Shown here piece by piece: positions 27,400-35,433 of a stretch of DNA of 64,000 nt. The notes under the pieces were generated by a model. The model ran no database searches. It saw nothing but the letters and a program-made list of their open reading frames with translations, and was not told the origin of the DNA. The stretch covers positions 682,001 to 746,000 of the forward strand of contig NZ_CP119993.1 in assembly GCF_029338575.1 (NCBI RefSeq), written 5' to 3'. The first letter of the stretch is position 1, and every line of letters begins with the position of its first letter. The translations under genes and the position numbers were made by a program. Source of the DNA: Halomarina halobia. Lineage in GTDB: Archaea; Halobacteriota; Halobacteria; Halobacteriales; Haloarculaceae.

Positions 27400-27540
27400 A
27401 GCGTCACCGCGCGTCGTCGGTCCGCGCGTTCCCTATACACAGGGACCGCATCGCAAACAGTTTCGAAATAGTTATAACATCGAGGGCGGAACTTCCGGGA
27501 ATTTAAAATTAACCAGCCACTCGTATAATTTAATAAGATA

Positions 27541-27552
27541 ATTTTATTTTTG
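27541..27552 (+). promoter_or_regulatory. TATA-like box of the small gene at 27574
   Basis: ATTTTATTTTT lies 22-33 bases before the ATG at 27574, in a conspicuously AT-rich stretch (27465-27555). This spacing fits a leaderless haloarchaeal transcript. Upstream TTTAATAAG may extend the element. Confidence 0.45.
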
Positions 27553-27573
27553 TAGTGCCGATGTAGAAGGTGT

Positions 27574-27723
27574 ATGTCGGAGAAGAGAACCGGCGATTCC
27601 GCGGTCGCAACGTACCTGGCAGAGCACCCCAAGATGACCGGCGTCCTGTTCACGACGCTCCTTCTCCTCACGCAGGCGCAGGCCGTCGTCGCGGCGCACG
27701 GGAGCTCGACCACCGGCCCGTGA
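27574..27723 (+). CDS. Small hydrophobic haloarchaeal protein (DUF7503-like)
   Basis: A 49-codon gene with a strong own promoter. The product is charged at first (MSEKRTGDSAVATYLAEHPK), then forms one hydrophobic segment (MTGVLFTTLLLLTQAQAVVA) and ends AAHGSSTTGP. This pattern (YLAEHPKMTGVLF..LL) is one I remember from a widespread set of tiny haloarchaeal proteins labelled DUF7503. The hydrophobic part followed by AxA could be a signal peptide releasing a 10-residue peptide, or a membrane anchor. Function is unknown. Confidence 0.7.
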   Translation: MSEKRTGDSAVATYLAEHPKMTGVLFTTLLLLTQAQAVVAAHGSSTTGP

Positions 27724-27773: not shown

Positions 27774-29909
27774 TCATTCTCGGTTCAGTACGTCGTCTAT
27801 TCCCCCGTTTAGCAGTCGGTCGCTCCAGTAGAGCACACCCTCATACATGACGGGGAAGCGCTCGAGCGCCAGAAACTCCTCGAGCTCGGAGTGCGTGACG
27901 ACGAACTCCGAGATCCTACCGGAATTGAGGTACCGACGCTCGTTCTGGGCGATGTACGGTGTATACAGCGTGCCAAGCGGGACACGCGGCGTCGGATACC
28001 CCCAGAGAGCCACCGCGTATCGGTCGGCTGCCACCCGGGTCAGGTCCATAGATATCGGCGTTCCCGCCCGATTGTCCGTCAGCGCGAGTTGCGCGTCCCC
28101 GACGACGCCGTACTGCTGGCCGGTGACGGTGGTCCGACCGACGATGTCGAGCACGCCCGCGAGCGAGAAGCCGGAATTGAGTAGCCGCGCGGTGGTGCGG
28201 CCGATCCGCGTGGCCGGTTCGTTCCCCACCTTCGAGGCGGTCACGACGCCGGCGATCGCCCCCGCCCGCACGAGGCGCATGCCCTGTTCGTAGGAGTTGC
28301 AGGCGTTGAGGACGAACGCGCGCGTGCCGACGGCGTCGAGCGTCCCCGTATCGAGGAACCCGTCCGCGCACTGCACGCCCTCGGCGTCGACGTGCCCGAC
28401 GTAGTGGACGAAGTCCAGTTCGGTCGCGAACAGATCGGCCAGCTCCTCGCGCGTGAGGTCCTCGTAGAGGGCGACGTCGAACTCGACCAGTTCGCGGAGA
28501 CCGTAGTACTCGCTGACGTCGTTCTCCGCTCGCATCTCCGGGGAGTTCGAGACGACCGCGACCCGGATGCTTCCGCTCGGCTTCGCCGCCAGCCGCCGTT
28601 TGCACGCGGCGATCGTCGGCTTCGAGGCGGCCAGCGGGTACCCGTCGCCGATCCAGGTGTGTTCTATCGTCTCGGAGGGGGGTACGCCGATGACGCGCTC
28701 GGCCATGTCGTCGTCCCGATTCCGTCGCGTGGGTTCCGCCCTGCCGCTCTCGCGCCACACGTTCGACTCCGCGACGGACCGGCCCCCGGATCGGAAGAAG
28801 TCGGCGAGGACCACCGGCGTCTCGGCCTCCGTGGGACGACGCGTCGGCGGACACCGGACGAGCGCGAGGTCCGCCGCGAGAAACGGGAGGTACTCGACGT
28901 GGTCGGCCCTGGGAGCGACGTCCGCGGTCTGTTTCCACGTCGGGATCTCGTCGGCGACCGCGTCGAACGGGACGTCGAGGTACGCCGCGAGGCGATTCCC
29001 GGCGGATCGGTCATAGAGGTCGGCGAAGTCCAGGTCGAGGCGTTCCTCGAGACGTTCGCGAACGTTCAGCTCGACCGGGTAGTACCCTTCGGTGCGCGTC
29101 ACGCAGTCGAGGAGGAACACCTGCTTCAGCGTCCGGTGGACGGCCGTCTCGTACCCGCGCTCCGAGTCGAGTTCGTGGACGGAGTCGTCGAGCAGCAGGC
29201 GGGGAGCGTCCCCCGGTCTCACCTCCGCGTCGAGGTAGTAGGCGAGCGACGCGGCCGGGAAGACGTACTCGTACTCCGGCGGGAGTTCGAGCGTCGTGGT
29301 GTGTTCCCGGTCGCGGAGCGACGACGGCCGGTCGAAGCGATCGCCGAACTCGATGAGGGGCGGATGTCCGCGAAGCGAGGGCCACGACCGTTCCGCCGAG
29401 GTGGTCTTGAGCGCCGACCCGAGCGTCGACAGCGCCCGCATCACGTCGATCGGATCCTCCGTCGTCGTGACGGTCGCCGCGGGGTACTCGTGGCGCGACC
29501 GAACGCCCAGCCGAACGTGGTCGGTGTCGAGGGCCTCGATGACGCGTTCGCCGCCGTCGTCGGTGATGACGAGCCGACCCTCGACGTGGAGGTACGTCAC
29601 GATGCTCAGCGAGGTGATCTCGACGGTGTACGACCCGCACTCGGTCTCGGCGCGCTTTCTGTTCGCCGCTTCGACCACGACGTCGGCGTCGGCGTTCCGG
29701 ACGATCACGTTGACGAGGTGCGGAACGCGAACTTCGGTCGCGTCGAGACGGACCGCGCGGTCGACCGGGAAGGTGAAGTGATCGGTCGAACACGACTCGA
29801 TCGCGGCTCTCGACGGGAGGCGGAGCTGCGTCTGCACGCCCTGAATGTCGTCGATGATTCGTACGCCGTACGGGTCTTCCGTCTCGGTGATCGTTAGCGC
29901 GTCCTTCAT
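27774..29909 (-). CDS. CHAT-domain (caspase-like) protein
   Basis: A 711-residue protein. The C-terminal region (about 440-620) has CHAT protease features: a histidine motif DFVHYVGHVDAEG (H506) and the cysteine strand FVLNACNSYEQG (C537), followed by GAIAGVVTASKVGNEPATRI. His-Cys spacing of about 31 fits CHAT/caspase-fold peptidases. The N-terminal 400 residues (LRLPSRAAIESCSTDHFTFP) form an all-beta-looking haloarchaeal domain with no recognised name. It has no signal peptide or membrane segment, so it acts in the cytoplasm. The partner gene ends 12 bases upstream. A regulated protease in stress or defence signalling is possible, but this is inference; target unknown. Confidence 0.75.
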   Translation of the reverse strand: MKDALTITETEDPYGVRIIDDIQGVQTQLRLPSRAAIESCSTDHFTFPVDRAVRLDATEVRVPHLVNVIVRNADADVVVEAANRKRAETECGSYTVEITSLSIVTYLHVEGRLVITDDGGERVIEALDTDHVRLGVRSRHEYPAATVTTTEDPIDVMRALSTLGSALKTTSAERSWPSLRGHPPLIEFGDRFDRPSSLRDREHTTTLELPPEYEYVFPAASLAYYLDAEVRPGDAPRLLLDDSVHELDSERGYETAVHRTLKQVFLLDCVTRTEGYYPVELNVRERLEERLDLDFADLYDRSAGNRLAAYLDVPFDAVADEIPTWKQTADVAPRADHVEYLPFLAADLALVRCPPTRRPTEAETPVVLADFFRSGGRSVAESNVWRESGRAEPTRRNRDDDMAERVIGVPPSETIEHTWIGDGYPLAASKPTIAACKRRLAAKPSGSIRVAVVSNSPEMRAENDVSEYYGLRELVEFDVALYEDLTREELADLFATELDFVHYVGHVDAEGVQCADGFLDTGTLDAVGTRAFVLNACNSYEQGMRLVRAGAIAGVVTASKVGNEPATRIGRTTARLLNSGFSLAGVLDIVGRTTVTGQQYGVVGDAQLALTDNRAGTPISMDLTRVAADRYAVALWGYPTPRVPLGTLYTPYIAQNERRYLNSGRISEFVVTHSELEEFLALERFPVMYEGVLYWSDRLLNGGIDDVLNRE

Positions 29910-29921
29910 GAGATCGTCGCC

Positions 29922-30650
29922 TCAGAGTCGCATCCACGTCGTCCGCTCGTCGACGGCCGGGAGGTACCACCGGTGCTCCGGGGGCAGCGGGTCGGAAATT
30001 CGAAGATCGATGCGGACGTCGAAGTGCGGGAGGAGGGCGGCGATCCGGTCGTCGTCGTGGGAGAGCGGAGCGTGCACGTGGAAGATACCGTTCGCGGCGT
30101 GAACGGGGCTCTCGACCGTTCGGACGAACTCGATCACCTCGTCGACGCCGCTGTCGAGGAACGCACCGACCGACGTCACGCCGACGCGGAGGACGCCCGG
30201 CGACAGGTGATTGTGCCCGGCGACCTTCAGGACTGCCTCCGTGAGCGCGGCGCGAAGCGCGTCCGACTCGGCGATCTCGGAGGACGTCGCTCGCGTCTGT
30301 TGGCGCTCGGACGCGACCGGGGCTGCCTCGATTCCGTCGGCCGTTGCCCTCGTCCGTGCAGCATCGGGGTGTGACACGACGACCGCGCGACGGTCGGACT
30401 GGAGGTCGACGGGGAAATACGCGCTCGGGGCGAGCGAGGCGGTGCTCGTGCGGCCGAGGATCCGCCACCGGTCCGCCTCCGTCGAGCCGAAGAGCCGCCG
30501 CGTCATCTCCGCGCGGACGGCGTCTCCCACCACGCCGCAGACGAGCACCGAACAACCCTCGCGCTTGAGTCGCTTGAGCGTCGCCGAGAGGGGCGACGCT
30601 CCCCGGCGTTCGGGAAACCCGAGATCGGATGGTCTGTCGGCCGAGGGCAT
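29922..30650 (-). CDS. DUF7504-like protein, partner of the CHAT protein
   Basis: A 242-residue protein. Near its start LKRLKREGCSVLVCGVVGDA followed by RAEMTRRLFG looks like the N-terminal strand-loop-helix of a P-loop-like fold, but without a proper Walker A lysine. The middle (PVASERQQTRATSSEIAESD) is a polar linker, and the C-terminal half (LRVGVTSVGAFLDSGVDEVI, NGIFHVHAPLSHDDDRIAAL) resembles the haloarchaeal DUF7504 family, from memory. The ATG at 30650 sits 24-34 bases after a TATA box. It lies 12 bases before the CHAT gene, in one operon. Confidence 0.65.
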   Translation of the reverse strand: MPSADRPSDLGFPERRGASPLSATLKRLKREGCSVLVCGVVGDAVRAEMTRRLFGSTEADRWRILGRTSTASLAPSAYFPVDLQSDRRAVVVSHPDAARTRATADGIEAAPVASERQQTRATSSEIAESDALRAALTEAVLKVAGHNHLSPGVLRVGVTSVGAFLDSGVDEVIEFVRTVESPVHAANGIFHVHAPLSHDDDRIAALLPHFDVRIDLRISDPLPPEHRWYLPAVDERTTWMRL

Positions 30651-30673
30651 TCTACTGATAACGTGGGCGGCAG

Positions 30674-30684
30674 TAATACATAAA
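30674..30684 (-). promoter_or_regulatory. TATA box of the CHAT operon
   Basis: On the minus strand TTTATGTATTA lies 24-34 bases before the ATG at 30650, consistent with a leaderless transcript covering both genes. The surrounding 40 bases are AT-rich, unlike the flanks. Confidence 0.5.
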
Positions 30685-30813
30685 CAATATGTAGAAATTC
30701 GTTCATTGTCGGCCGGTTCTCGGGGTCGCACTCGGCGGGAACGGGAGTCACTACCCGCATCTGCCGGCCGGTGGCCCCTGAAGGTTCATTACCGTCTACC
30801 CTGATGGGCAGGT

Positions 30814-31590
30814 ATGGTGACGGAGGAACCGGGGGAGCGCGTCGCGACCGTTCACACGGCGTTCGAGATCGTCTCGTACGTGCAGGAGTCACGGGGAGCG
30901 CGGCTCACGGACGTCGCCGCCCATCTCGACATCGCGAAGAGCACCGCACACCGGCACATACGGTACCTCGAATCCCAGGGATACCTCGTCGAGACGGACG
31001 GCGAGTATCACGTCGGACTGCGGTTTCTCGACCACGGAATCCACGCCCGCGAGCGGATCGAGTGGATCGAACTCGCCGAGACGCGCACGGCGACGCTCGC
31101 CGACGAAACCGGAGAGTTGTGTAACTTCATGGTCGAACAGAACGGATGGTGCTACATCCTCTGTCGCGAGAAGGGACCGTCGGCGGTCGAGACGGGCTCG
31201 AGGATTGGCAAGCCGCTGTACCTCCACACGACCGCCGGTGGCAAGGCGATCCTCTCGTGTCTCCCCGAGCGGCGGGTTCGACGCATCGTGCGGCAACGCG
31301 GGCTGCCGAAGCACACCGAAACCACCGTCGAAGATACCGACCAACTGCTGGCCGACCTCGCGACGGTCCGCGAGCGCGGTTACGCGGTAAACGACGAGGA
31401 ACACATTCCCGGCCTGATGGCGCTCGGCGCACCCGTGATCGGCGCGGGCGACGTGGTCCTTGGGGCGCTCTGCATCTCCGGTCCGTCGAATCGGCTCGGG
31501 GACCGTCGGACGGCCGACCTCGCCCAGCAGCTCCTGGGAGCGGTCAACGAACTCGAACTAAACATCAAGTACACCCGTCCGCATCGGTAG
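30814..31590 (+). CDS. IclR family transcriptional regulator
   Basis: A 258-residue regulator. Residues 1-70 form the winged helix (VQESRGARLTDVAAHLDIAK, STAHRHIRYLESQGYLVE). The C-terminal IclR effector domain has the typical GSRIGKPLYLHTTAGGKAIL, followed by AVNDEEHIPGLMALGAPVIG, where a small ligand binds. The catabolic operon that ends at 32038 points towards it from the other side, with one small gene between, so it is the likely regulator of that operon. Effector unknown. Confidence 0.9.
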   Translation: MVTEEPGERVATVHTAFEIVSYVQESRGARLTDVAAHLDIAKSTAHRHIRYLESQGYLVETDGEYHVGLRFLDHGIHARERIEWIELAETRTATLADETGELCNFMVEQNGWCYILCREKGPSAVETGSRIGKPLYLHTTAGGKAILSCLPERRVRRIVRQRGLPKHTETTVEDTDQLLADLATVRERGYAVNDEEHIPGLMALGAPVIGAGDVVLGALCISGPSNRLGDRRTADLAQQLLGAVNELELNIKYTRPHR

Positions 31591-31630
31591 GGGCGATGTG
31601 TTCCGGCACCGATCTCACAGAGGGAGAACG

Positions 31631-32044
31631 ATGACCGACCGATCACACGCCGATTCGCGTCGTCCGTCCGAGCGGTGCGACCCCCTCGGTTCCGATAACG
31701 CCGAGGTCGAGGACGTTCCACCGTGGTGGCGGGCCGCCATCCGGGAACACGAGCGCTACGACCTCGGACCGTACCTCCCCCCGCGGTTCAGCGACGGCGT
31801 CCTCCTCGAACCGGAGATCGAGCGCCTGGAGGACGAACACGGCGTCGAGATAACGATCATGGGAGTAAACGTCAGGGTCGGTGATAGCTGGACGGTGTTC
31901 CTCGACGGGGAGCCCGCCTTCGAGACCGACCGCCGTCGGACCCCCGAGGGATACACTCTCTTCGAACTGTCGTCCACCCGGTTCGCGGAGCAGGTGCGAA
32001 CCGAACTCGACGCAGACGACCGACCCGACAGCCGAGGTCAGTAG
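31631..32044 (+). CDS. Hypothetical acidic protein between the IclR gene and the catabolic operon
   Basis: A 137-residue acidic protein starting at the ATG at 31631, preceded by GGGAGAACG, which may act as a ribosome-binding site. Visible parts are VPPWWRAAIREHERYDLGPY and LEDEHGVEITIMGVNVRVGD, with no known motif. The strand pattern in the second half (VGDSWTVFLDGEPAFETDRR) suggests a small beta domain. It follows the IclR gene by 40 bases and may share its transcript. Its end overlaps the end of the reductase gene by 7 bases in convergent orientation. Confidence 0.7.
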   Translation: MTDRSHADSRRPSERCDPLGSDNAEVEDVPPWWRAAIREHERYDLGPYLPPRFSDGVLLEPEIERLEDEHGVEITIMGVNVRVGDSWTVFLDGEPAFETDRRRTPEGYTLFELSSTRFAEQVRTELDADDRPDSRGQ

Positions 32045-32964
32045 CTGTGTTCCTTGCCCTTCACGAGCGCCGTCGCCATCCGATTGTACGGCGTGTCGAC
32101 GCCGACTTCCTCACCGTACTCGACGATCGCACCGTTGATGTGGTCGATCTCCGTCCGCCGCCCGAGGGTGACGTCCTCGAGCATCGATGACGTCGTATCG
32201 TAGTTGATACGACACGTTCGGTGGGTCTCGGCCACGGGATCGTCGAGGAGGATCTCGATGCCCTTCGCCCGCGCGACTGCCGCGGCCTCGGTCACCAGCG
32301 TCTCCATGACGTGGGCGGGCTCTTCGAGTTCGCTCAGTGGACCGTCGAGGAGCCCGGTGAGCGCGGCGACCGGCTTGATCCCGACGCTCACGAACTGCTT
32401 GCTCCAGATGTGGGGTTCGGGATCGTCGACGACCGTCGTTCGGAGGTCCGCCGCGTTCAGCATTCGAGCGATGCGCTCCGCCGCGGAACGGTCGACGCCC
32501 CCGAGTTTCGTCTCCCCCCATCCGGTGTGGAGCAGGTGACCGGGACCCTCCGTGCTCGAGCCCATCGTGGTCGCCCCCCCGAGGAGCCGCTCCTCCGCCA
32601 CGAACTCGCGGATCGTATCCATGTTCGTGAGGCCGTTCTGGAGAGTCACGACGAGAGTACCTTCGTCGTGGAGAGTCGCGGCGTCGCGCAGCGCCTCACG
32701 GGTGTGGTGGCTCTTGACGAAGACGAACAGGACGTCGACCGGACCGACCGAATCCGGATCGGTCGTCGCCGGGACCGTCACCCTGAGGTCGTCCCTGTCG
32801 GGACGCTCGATCAACAGTCCCTCGGCGTTGATCGCGGCCACGTGGTCCTCCCAGACGTCGACGAGGGTGACGTCCGCGCCGTCGGCCGCGAGGTACCCCC
32901 CGAACAGCCCGCCGAGCGCGCCCGCACCGAGGATTCCGACCCTCACGCGTCGGATCCCCTCCAC
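32038..32964 (-). CDS. 2-dehydropantoate 2-reductase family protein (PanE/ApbA)
   Basis: A 308-residue NAD(P)-dependent 2-oxoacid reductase. The Rossmann motif is GILGAGALGGLFGGYLA at the N-terminus. The middle part (VLFVFVKSHHTREAL, TLQNGLTNMDTIREFV, GATTMGSSTEGPGHLLHTG) and the C-terminal ApbA_C domain (ILLDDPVAETHRTCRINYDT, RRTEIDHINGAIVEYGEEVG) match the family. In the biosynthetic pathway it would make pantoate, but as the last gene of a catabolic operon a reductase for another 2-oxo or 3-hydroxy acid is more likely. It ends in a 7-base overlap with the convergent gene. Confidence 0.85.
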   Translation of the reverse strand: MEGIRRVRVGILGAGALGGLFGGYLAADGADVTLVDVWEDHVAAINAEGLLIERPDRDDLRVTVPATTDPDSVGPVDVLFVFVKSHHTREALRDAATLHDEGTLVVTLQNGLTNMDTIREFVAEERLLGGATTMGSSTEGPGHLLHTGWGETKLGGVDRSAAERIARMLNAADLRTTVVDDPEPHIWSKQFVSVGIKPVAALTGLLDGPLSELEEPAHVMETLVTEAAAVARAKGIEILLDDPVAETHRTCRINYDTTSSMLEDVTLGRRTEIDHINGAIVEYGEEVGVDTPYNRMATALVKGKEHSY

Positions 32965-33057
32965 TCGGCACGGATTCCGGTACGCGGACCGTCCGCGCTC
33001 CTGTCCGGCGAATCGCGGTGCGACGACCCGCGCGCTCCGTTCCGTCGCGCCGTGACC

Positions 33058-33447
33058 TCACACACGGACGTACACCTCTCCGTCGTCGAGTTCGGTCTCG
33101 TACGTCGGGATGCGGTACCTGCTGTGGGAGAGGTGTCGCCCCGTCTTGATCTCGAACTCCCAGCCGTGCCAGGGACACGAGACGATCTCACCCTCACACT
33201 CGTAGGTCAACTCCCAGTTCTCGTCCATCGAGAGCGTTCCGTCGACGAGCCCCTCGCAGAGGGGACCCCCCTGGTGGGTGCAGTAGTTGAGGAGGGCGTG
33301 AAACTCGTCTCCGATTCTGAACACCGCGATCTCCCGTCCCTCGATCTCGATGATCGCGCGCTCGCCGTCCTCGAGGGCGGCCGCGGCGATGACGTGGTGT
33401 CGTTTGCCGTGCGATCGTTCCGTGTCGTCAGCGTCTTTCGTCGTCAT
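33058..33447 (-). CDS. Rieske [2Fe-2S] domain protein
   Basis: A 129-residue ferredoxin-like protein. The cluster ligands are C56/H58 in NYCTHQGGPLCEG and C91/H94 in SCPWHGWEFE. The loop between them is 32 residues, longer than the usual 15-17, with an inserted LSMDENWELTYECEG. It has no signal or membrane segment, so it would be cytoplasmic. It lies between an amidohydrolase and a reductase gene in a catabolic operon, and would feed electrons to an oxygenase, but no oxygenase alpha subunit is in the window. ATG 33447 is chosen; a GTG at 33456 directly after the preceding stop is possible. Confidence 0.85.
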   Translation of the reverse strand: MTTKDADDTERSHGKRHHVIAAAALEDGERAIIEIEGREIAVFRIGDEFHALLNYCTHQGGPLCEGLVDGTLSMDENWELTYECEGEIVSCPWHGWEFEIKTGRHLSHSRYRIPTYETELDDGEVYVRV

Positions 33448-33456
33448 CGTGATCAC

Positions 33457-34632
33457 TCAGAAGTCGAAGACCTCCAGCGCGGTCCGGCCGTACACGTTGT
33501 TGATCTCCTCGTCCGAGAACGACGGGAGGAGTTTCATCAGTTCGTCCGTGTAGTCGAAGTCGAGGTGGGGGTAGTCAGAGGAGAACAGGAGGTTGCTCTC
33601 GCCGTTCATCAACCGGACGATGCTCTGAACGTACGTCGGATCGCCGGTCCCCTCGACGGGCTGGCTCGTGAAGTAGAAGTTCCGTCGGACGTACTCGCTC
33701 GGTTCCATCTCGAGCATCGGCGCGTCCTCCTTCTTCGAGTGGTACTCGTGGTCGAACCGACGCATGAAGTAGGGGACGTAACCGAGGCCCGCTTCCTGAA
33801 CGACGAACTTCAACTCCGGGAAGCGCACCGGCACGCCCCGCGTCAGCATGTCCGCCATGGTACACATGTGGATCATGGGATGGGCCACGACGTGTGCGGA
33901 GAGGAACCGGGTCAGGTGGCGGAACGGACTCGGGAACGCCGACATCATGTTCCCCGAGGCGCTGTGGAACATCACCGGGAGGTCCGCCGCCTCCGCGGCC
34001 TCGTAGATCGGGTAGTACTTCTCGTCGCCCGCTAGCGGGAAGACGCCCCCCATCGGGAGGAACACCCCGGCGACGGCCGACTCGTTCGCGCGGTCGTCGA
34101 TCTCCTCGGCGGCGCGGTCCGGACGGTGAGGCGCGACGACGGCCCCGCCGTAGATCCCCTCCTCGGCGTCGAGTATCTCGTCCAGTACCCACTCGTTGTA
34201 CGCGTGTGCCAGCGCCGGGGCGAGGTCTTCGTTCCGTACGCACCCGAGATAGAGGTTCAGCGTCGGCGTGACGACGACCCTGTCGGAGTGGATCAGCTCC
34301 ATTCCCCGACGGACGTCGTCCCTGCTCCGGACGGCGTCGGACTGGACTTTCCCGGTGGTGATCGGGTTGACGAGCCCCGCCGACGGGTAGAGGCTACTCA
34401 GGAACCCGTAGTCATCGCCCTGTCGCCGCCCGAACACCTTGCTCCAGGGCTCCGGGAGGTACGACAGGAAGTCCTCCTGGCGCTCGGTCAGGTGGAAGTC
34501 GCAGTCGACGATCTCCTCGAGGCCCTTCAGACGCCCCGGTTTCTCCGCTCGCCGCTTCGCTTCCGCTTCTCGTGTCGTTTCTGCTCCTCGCATCGGTTCC
34601 GCTTCTCGCTTCGGTTCCGCTTCTCGTGTCAT
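33457..34632 (-). CDS. Amidohydrolase-2 family metal-dependent hydrolase/decarboxylase
   Basis: A 391-residue protein with a TIM-barrel of the amidohydrolase_2 (ACMSD/LigJ-like) group. Residues from about 45 on read VDCDFHLTERQEDF, FLPMGGVFPLAGDEKYYPIY, VMFHSASGNMM, HPMIHMCTMADML and SSDYPHLDF, giving metal-binding His/Asp candidates. The first 45 residues are a low-complexity array of hexapeptides (REAEPK, REAEPM, RGAETT, REAEAK, RRAEKP), foreign to the family. The ATG at 34632 is chosen; another start at 34680 is in frame. With the RraA-family neighbour this could be a hydratase/decarboxylase of an aromatic ring-cleavage route, but that is inference. Confidence 0.8.
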   Translation of the reverse strand: MTREAEPKREAEPMRGAETTREAEAKRRAEKPGRLKGLEEIVDCDFHLTERQEDFLSYLPEPWSKVFGRRQGDDYGFLSSLYPSAGLVNPITTGKVQSDAVRSRDDVRRGMELIHSDRVVVTPTLNLYLGCVRNEDLAPALAHAYNEWVLDEILDAEEGIYGGAVVAPHRPDRAAEEIDDRANESAVAGVFLPMGGVFPLAGDEKYYPIYEAAEAADLPVMFHSASGNMMSAFPSPFRHLTRFLSAHVVAHPMIHMCTMADMLTRGVPVRFPELKFVVQEAGLGYVPYFMRRFDHEYHSKKEDAPMLEMEPSEYVRRNFYFTSQPVEGTGDPTYVQSIVRLMNGESNLLFSSDYPHLDFDYTDELMKLLPSFSDEEINNVYGRTALEVFDF

Positions 34633-34746
34633 TGGTCGTTCCGTCTCGGAAGTACTCTCGTTCGTCTCCGGTACCCGCACCGCATCGGCCCACCGCGATC
34701 GCCGCCGACAGCGTCAGCGACGCGAACACCGCCGGTGGTGTCGGTG

Positions 34747-35433
34747 TCAGTCATCCGTGTCCTGCGGAATCGCGGCGTTTCGGTCCCTCAGGAGTTCGTC
34801 GAAGCCCGCGATGTCGAACAACGCCTCCCCGCGGTCGATGCGCTGCTTTATCGACTCCTCTCTCTCGACGTGCGCCTCGAGGCGGTCGAGGACGTCGCGC
34901 GCCTCCCGTCGAGGAACGACGGTCACCCCGTCCGCGTCCCCGACGACGATGTCGCCGGGGTCGACGACGACCTCGCCGACGGTGACGGGCACGTTCACCG
35001 AGCCGACGGTCTCCTTGACCGCACCGATCTGGGAGACGGCCCGGCTGAAGACGGGAAAGCCGAGATCGTCGATCGCGTCCACGTCGCGGACGTTCCCGCT
35101 GGAGACGACGCCCTCGAGTTCGCGCTGGAGGGCGTTTCTCGTCGCGAGTTCGCCCCACGTGGCGGCGCGAGTGGTCCGGGCCTCGATGACGAGCACGTCG
35201 CCCGGCCTGGCGAGGTGTGAGCCGACGTGGATCATCATGTTGTCCCCGGTCGGGAGGCGAACGGTCGTCGCGGGTCCGCAGATCGTCCGCCGGCCGGTCA
35301 CCCGCCCGATCTCCGGGGACATGGCGTTCGTCTTGCCCATCGCCTCGTGGACGTCGGCCGCGCTGTGGCCTCGAAACGAGGCGAGGAGTTCTTCGGTCGG
35401 TCTGTCGATGTCGGTGATTATCTTTCGTGTCAT
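34747..35433 (-). CDS. RraA family protein (HMG/CHA aldolase-like)
   Basis: A 228-residue protein of the RraA/4-hydroxy-4-methyl-2-oxoglutarate aldolase family. Diagnostic parts are SAADVHEAMGKTNAMSPEIG, GPATTVRLPTGDNMMIHVGS, VSSGNVRDVDAIDDLGFPVF and the metal-binding PGDIVVGDADGVTVVP. The GNVRDVDA segment holds the arginine and aspartate of the aldolase active site. In catabolic operons such proteins cleave a 4-carboxy-4-hydroxy-2-oxoadipate or related acid to pyruvate plus a second acid. It sits 21 bases after the TRAP permease gene, supporting that role; the RNase E inhibitor role of bacterial RraA does not apply here. Confidence 0.85.
   Translation of the reverse strand: MTRKIITDIDRPTEELLASFRGHSAADVHEAMGKTNAMSPEIGRVTGRRTICGPATTVRLPTGDNMMIHVGSHLARPGDVLVIEARTTRAATWGELATRNALQRELEGVVSSGNVRDVDAIDDLGFPVFSRAVSQIGAVKETVGSVNVPVTVGEVVVDPGDIVVGDADGVTVVPRREARDVLDRLEAHVEREESIKQRIDRGEALFDIAGFDELLRDRNAAIPQDTDD

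Follow-up and report, generated by a model that had tools for sequence, protein, structure and literature searches.

A predicted haloarchaeal CHAT cysteine protease with an apparently dedicated peptide partner, a convergently encoded microprotein ending in Gly-Pro

The locus described here lies in the window, meaning the whole 64,000-nucleotide stretch of Halomarina halobia DNA that was analysed, and consists of a two-gene set on the minus strand and a short gene that runs towards it from the plus strand. Its features are as follows.

27475-27573, plus strand: AT-rich region 5' of the DUF7503 gene with a TATA-like element, a likely leaderless promoter of approximate extent (upstream composition of 123 relatives and the window sequence).
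27574-27723, plus strand: gene of the DUF7503 microprotein (49 aa), the convergent partner of CHAT (Pfam PF24335, linkage and family coding pattern).
27694-27720, plus strand: C-terminal nonapeptide AHGSSTTGP of DUF7503, with the conserved -GP tail (tail statistics; tandem amplification in Haloplanus).
27774-29909, minus strand: predicted CHAT (clan CD) cysteine peptidase (ORF of 711 aa; AlphaFold2 model, Foldseek and Pfam matches of homologues).
28080-28682, minus strand: peptidase (CHAT) domain of approximate extent, near residues 410-610 (conserved columns and the secondary structure seen in the model).
28299-28301, minus strand: codon of the predicted catalytic Cys537 (LNACNS).
28392-28394, minus strand: codon of the predicted catalytic His506 (HYVGH).
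29475-29909, minus strand: N-terminal beta-rich domain, about residues 1-145, unnamed (model and profile score).
29922-30650, minus strand: DUF7504 protein, 242 aa, with a KaiC/RecA-like fold, likely the first gene of the operon (Pfam PF24336, model and Foldseek).
30651-30700, minus strand: likely promoter of the DUF7504-CHAT pair, TTTATGTATT (read from the sequence only).

The two ORFs of 711 and 242 aa, and the positions of His506 and Cys537 within them, were found where an earlier note on this DNA had placed them. No significant hit to the 711-aa protein came from Pfam, NCBIfam or PADLOC, and searches of PDB sequences with the single protein or with a profile returned nothing meaningful. 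Pfam CHAT (PF12770) was matched by 11 of 70 aligned homologues (best E-value 1.8e-8), the window protein itself being unmatched. An AlphaFold2 model built from the 70 homologues reached a mean pLDDT of 89.6 and a pTM of 0.90, and its best solved structures in Foldseek were clan-CD peptidases, namely RgpB (E-value 5e-7), SAVED-CHAT (1e-6), separase (1e-5) and Craspase. The CHAT/caspase-like identity put forward in the note is upheld by this model, in which the 711-aa ORF is a protein of clan-CD (caspase-like) fold with an intact His/Cys dyad. Conservation of the two residues among homologues, on which the note had let the assignment hang, was found in 160 of 161 proteins, and the sole exception, which lies outside the class, has lost both. 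In L195 (7043-9106, minus strand), a homologue from outside the class and probably from Methanocella, both residues are replaced (FIGR and CTDS), and this protein is likely a pseudo-enzyme. No membrane segment or signal peptide was predicted in the window's CHAT protein.

Separase and gingipain RgpB share the clan-CD fold with the CHAT protein, and their long Foldseek alignments suggest a comparable two-subdomain arrangement, although the protein described here belongs to a separate family. SAVED-CHAT, the protease filament of a type III CRISPR system (8tl0), is likewise among the best structural matches, but at an identity of 13-18%, with no SAVED domain recognised and no CRISPR gene seen near the locus. 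Neither a TPR nor a SAVED domain was found in the window protein by Pfam, and the recurrent neighbours of CHAT loci are not cas genes.

The DUF7504 ORF lies on the same strand as the CHAT ORF, with 12 nt between them, and the TATA-like element ahead of the pair stands about 30 nt before the DUF7504 ATG. The earlier designation of this protein as DUF7504-like agrees with its match to Pfam PF24336 (E-value 6e-27; score 95.6 bits, cut-off 27). It had also been described as P-loop-like, which holds for the fold, since its model (pLDDT 86) matched FlaH, KaiC and RecA in Foldseek (E-value about 1e-6 for FlaH and KaiC), but not for the motif, since a Walker A sequence (GxxxxGK[TS]) was present in 0 of 92 DUF7504 proteins. 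Because this motif is absent the protein was not filed as an ATPase, and ATP binding, as judged from the usual motif, is unlikely. At 30814-35433 the window contains an IclR-type regulator and a ketopantoate-reductase-like gene (both by Pfam) together with ORFs that by eye resemble a Rieske-type ferredoxin, an amidohydrolase and RraA; this cluster is apparently catabolic and unrelated to the CHAT module.

The earlier statement that no target gene is adjacent does not stand, as a convergent gene of 49 codons lies 50 nt past the CHAT stop and is near-invariant among relatives. Its product matched Pfam PF24335 (DUF7503) with an E-value of 6e-20 (score 71 bits, cut-off 27). Across 124 distinct DUF7503 sequences the architecture comprises an N-terminal YLA.HP[RK] consensus, a hydrophobic segment, a c-region of small residues and a C-terminal tail. 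The tail has 9 residues in 100 of these sequences and ends in Gly-Pro in 118, and apart from this GP end it is highly variable, with 120 distinct tails among the 124. The -3/-1 rule of signal peptidase I is satisfied by 122 of the 124 sequences, and the tails are short. The body of the protein could be a signal peptide or, equally, a membrane anchor, and net charges leave the topology unsettled. Changes at the three codon positions of the family numbered 1229, 909 and 2576, which is a coding pattern, and in 123 relatives the DNA upstream is AT-rich across about 60 nt and carries a TATA-like element.

Linkage of DUF7503 to CHAT was assessed genome-wide in 59 relatives, of which 49 have at least one CHAT homologue. 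Of the 69 DUF7503 genes, 67 were on the strand opposite a CHAT and no more than 400 nt from its 3' end, the remaining 2 were within 2.2 kb of a CHAT, and no DUF7503 was found in a CHAT-less genome of this set. When 295 genomes of the phylum were sampled, all 44 with DUF7503 were also in the CHAT list. Among collected loci with both genes, 138 of 139 DUF7503 genes lie directly downstream of CHAT and are read from the other strand, the median distance from the end of the DUF7503 domain to the CHAT stop being 5 nt; conversely, 125 of 157 distinct CHATs are accompanied by DUF7503. As a control, a convergent ORF ending in GP was sought within 300 nt of every gene in the same loci and was present beside 129 of 155 CHATs vs 18 of 1648 other genes. 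In the window's genus, CHAT paralogues retain their own DUF7503 type in 18 of 19 nearest-neighbour comparisons, and the distances among CHATs are correlated with those among DUF7503 proteins (r 0.52, where permutations reached at most 0.15), as would be the case for a cassette. From these sequence comparisons the CHAT protease appears to have a dedicated, previously undescribed peptide partner.

Several CHATs lack a Pfam DUF7503 match and have a convergent GP-ending ORF instead (L054, L170 and L189, perhaps also L052 and L150). The partner microproteins of L170 and L189 are diverged: their N-terminus is rich in lysine and tryptophan, and at the C-terminal end a CxxC precedes TGP. In L044 and L045 two head-to-head CHAT genes flank one DUF7504, and each has its own convergent DUF7503.

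In Haloplanus the DUF7503 gene takes a second form. The standard TM form is kept by 3 of 12 genomes (L218, L220 and L221), and the other nine (L211-L217, L219 and L222, one of them partly masked) carry at this place a gene without the hydrophobic segment that encodes 2-14 nonapeptide units and shares its promoter region and start with the standard form. The transition from TM form to repeat form is thus visible inside one genus, since three congeners retain the former. The units follow the pattern GN[GS][GSA][GAV]... (e.g. GNGGGISGP, GNSGGISGP, GNGSGISGP and GNGGAVSGP), are joined by [YFMS][TN]AD linkers, and every repeat gene terminates precisely in Gly-Pro; no signal peptide was found in the repeat forms. 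The units of any one species have the same protein sequence and differ in DNA only synonymously, pairwise codon comparison in seven genomes giving 852 synonymous and 0 nonsynonymous differences (counts that are not independent events), so each unit is selected as a peptide. Together with the codon-position pattern of the family, the repeat units place DUF7503 under protein-level selection; the same two results rule out a spurious antisense ORF. Because Haloplanus lost the TM body and kept and multiplied the peptide, the GP peptide is taken as the conserved functional part of DUF7503. A cut at the conserved P-[RK] that precedes the TM segment, a separase- or gingipain-like Arg/Lys site, was also considered and is weakened by the Haloplanus repeats, which do not contain the motif.

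Yeast alpha-factor is a multi-copy peptide precursor, and precursors of its type resemble the Haloplanus repeat forms in their tandem identical short units, conserved linkers and strong protein-level constraint. The repeat forms, as putative precursors, differ from them in having no secretion signal.

CHAT genes recur in conserved neighbourhoods. The window's own genome has four copies, and haloarchaeal megaplasmids also carry copies, one of which is named 'caspase family protein' and another 'CHAT domain-containing protein' in RefSeq. DUF7504 occurs within three genes of CHAT in 85 of 157 distinct loci, and in 59 of these it is the next gene upstream on the CHAT strand; a HalX/receiver-like gene occurs within three genes in 49 of 157, a label that may include unrelated response regulators. 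In many genera one CHAT clade has glyA on one side and tbsP/ycaO on the other, and another clade adjoins metX, a distribution of conserved synteny and not of scattered islands. L036 (G000:C1:452760-454346), L105 and L106 contain a CHAT paralogue between glyA and tbsP/ycaO without the N-terminal domain or DUF7503; convergent GP-ending ORFs are present beside CHATs of the GlyA clade in L094, L096 and L208, some of which may be due to chance. A further conserved neighbourhood (L035, L071, L076, L079, L080, L082, L088 and L191) has the order unnamed protein of about 230 aa upstream, DUF7503, unnamed protein of about 140 aa, protein of 69-70 aa and DUF5789, with no Pfam family found for the two unnamed proteins. 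Outside the class, divergent CHAT homologues stand next to dnaG in four genomes of one family, probably Methanocella, and no convergent GP-ending ORF was found beside them. The CHATs of the GlyA/TbsP clade and those outside the class have the dyad and are mostly without the partner, so that the protease must serve another purpose in them, which counts against the preferred reading given below.

A role in defence, as the earlier note had suggested, is not borne out by these data. PADLOC returned no defence-system match for the CHAT or the DUF7504 protein, searches of viral contigs and phage records yielded no CHAT homologue, and several clades sit in conserved housekeeping neighbourhoods; a defence island or known defence system was rejected on these grounds. 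The distribution is more easily reconciled with signalling or stress control than with defence, and the CHAT locus may act in a signalling or regulated-death pathway.

Our preferred reading is that the CHAT protease either acts on a dedicated GP-peptide precursor or is under its control, in a signalling or stress pathway, often with DUF7504 as regulator, and on the comparative evidence above we hold it tentatively, with a little under even confidence. The locus would then comprise a CHAT cysteine protease and its own peptide partner, the convergently transcribed DUF7503 precursor, whose essential part would be the C-terminal peptide of about 9 residues ending in Gly-Pro. We infer a direct relation between protease and peptide, cleavage included: CHAT would recognise DUF7503 and cut just before the tail, at sites that would be homologous in the two forms: ahead of Gly-Asn, the TM form has [AV]-A-A and the repeat form has T-A-D. 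Such cleavage would release short GP-ended peptides as a stress or regulatory signal, and DUF7504, joined in some clades by the HalX/receiver protein, would set the timing of protease activity. More loosely, we regard as possible an archaeal ribosomal peptide system in which CHAT releases GP-ended nonapeptides, from single- or multi-copy precursors, as signals within or between cells.

The nearest CHAT precedent for such a partner is the protease Csx29, which cleaves the locus-encoded Csx30 (PMC10028731). Csx29 (TPR-CHAT) and Csx30 of type III-E CRISPR (Craspase) resemble the present locus in the CHAT fold, the His/Cys dyad and the locus-encoded protein partner, whereas Cas7-11, crRNA and sigma factor are absent here, the partner is a GP-tailed microprotein and DUF7504 stands in place of an RNA-guided activator.

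Processing is favoured because the [AV]AA or TAD residues ahead of the tail persist in each repeat, as a cleavage signal would, and a TAD|G site would be caspase-like. Against it, the P1 residue would differ between the forms, being Ala or Asp. The tail of the TM form may furthermore be extracellular, and the CHAT protein has neither a predicted membrane segment nor a predicted signal peptide, so protease and tail might not meet; contact might be feasible if the topology of DUF7503 is C-in or if cleavage precedes insertion.

The main rival to processing is that the GP tail is a ligand of CHAT, an activator or securin-like inhibitor perhaps bound via the N-terminal beta domain, with the real targets elsewhere and the repeats serving as multivalent or high-dose ligands, which we consider somewhat unlikely. 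In its favour, all forms of the protein terminate precisely in Gly-Pro, the last repeat unit too, like a C-terminal recognition motif. The profile score of the N-terminal domain, moreover, is high in DUF7503-paired CHATs, with a median of 153 bits, whereas in the GlyA/TbsP clade it is low, with a median of 30. This contrast is confounded by phylogeny, so it is suggestive of a peptide receptor at most, and domain-wise distance correlations between CHAT and partner do not discriminate the N-terminal domain as the receptor; its standing as a candidate peptide-binding domain is speculative. The retention of TAD or VAA before each unit is also more like a processing signal.

That DUF7503 is the precursor of a secreted peptide signal matured by signal peptidase, with CHAT, DUF7504 and HalX forming the intracellular response and taking no part in maturation, would suit the -3/-1 residues and the short, variable tail, but the Haloplanus repeat forms have no signal peptide and no receptor was identified, which makes this improbable. 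Bacterial gasdermin-protease pairs place a protease gene beside the gene for a membrane-related partner, and the present locus is alike in this respect; the DUF7503 partner, however, has 42-55 aa, is not gasdermin-sized and has a dispensable membrane segment. A small membrane toxin released or controlled by CHAT (gasdermin-like regulated death or abortive infection) is suggested by a small hydrophobic protein beside a caspase-like protease, and caspase-like activity is known in Haloferax (PMC3615174). It is nevertheless highly improbable, given that nine Haloplanus genomes drop the hydrophobic segment and keep and amplify the GP peptide, and that the defence and viral searches were negative. 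Tail-to-tail ends often only a few nucleotides apart could form antisense pairs, but mere proximity or antisense transcription with no relation at the protein level is scarcely credible, given that linkage is near-perfect over numerous genera and paralogues and that the tail is selected as protein.

No mention of DUF7503, DUF7504 or CHAT in haloarchaea was found in the literature searched, and a limited search found no archaeal peptide signal; if the peptide is a signal, it would represent a new type of archaeal communication or stress control. Haloferax volcanii and other haloarchaea have strong caspase-like activity to which no gene has been assigned (PMC3615174), and the CHATs, being widespread in the class with a conserved dyad, are concrete candidates for it. 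Through the linked peptide gene each protease has a nominated partner, and the pathway can be put to the test in Haloferax, which is amenable to genetics. Other Haloferax species have the complete DUF7504-CHAT-DUF7503 arrangement adjoining a HalX response regulator, and H. volcanii has DUF7503 by Pfam search of control genomes, which together make the presence of the module in H. volcanii probable.
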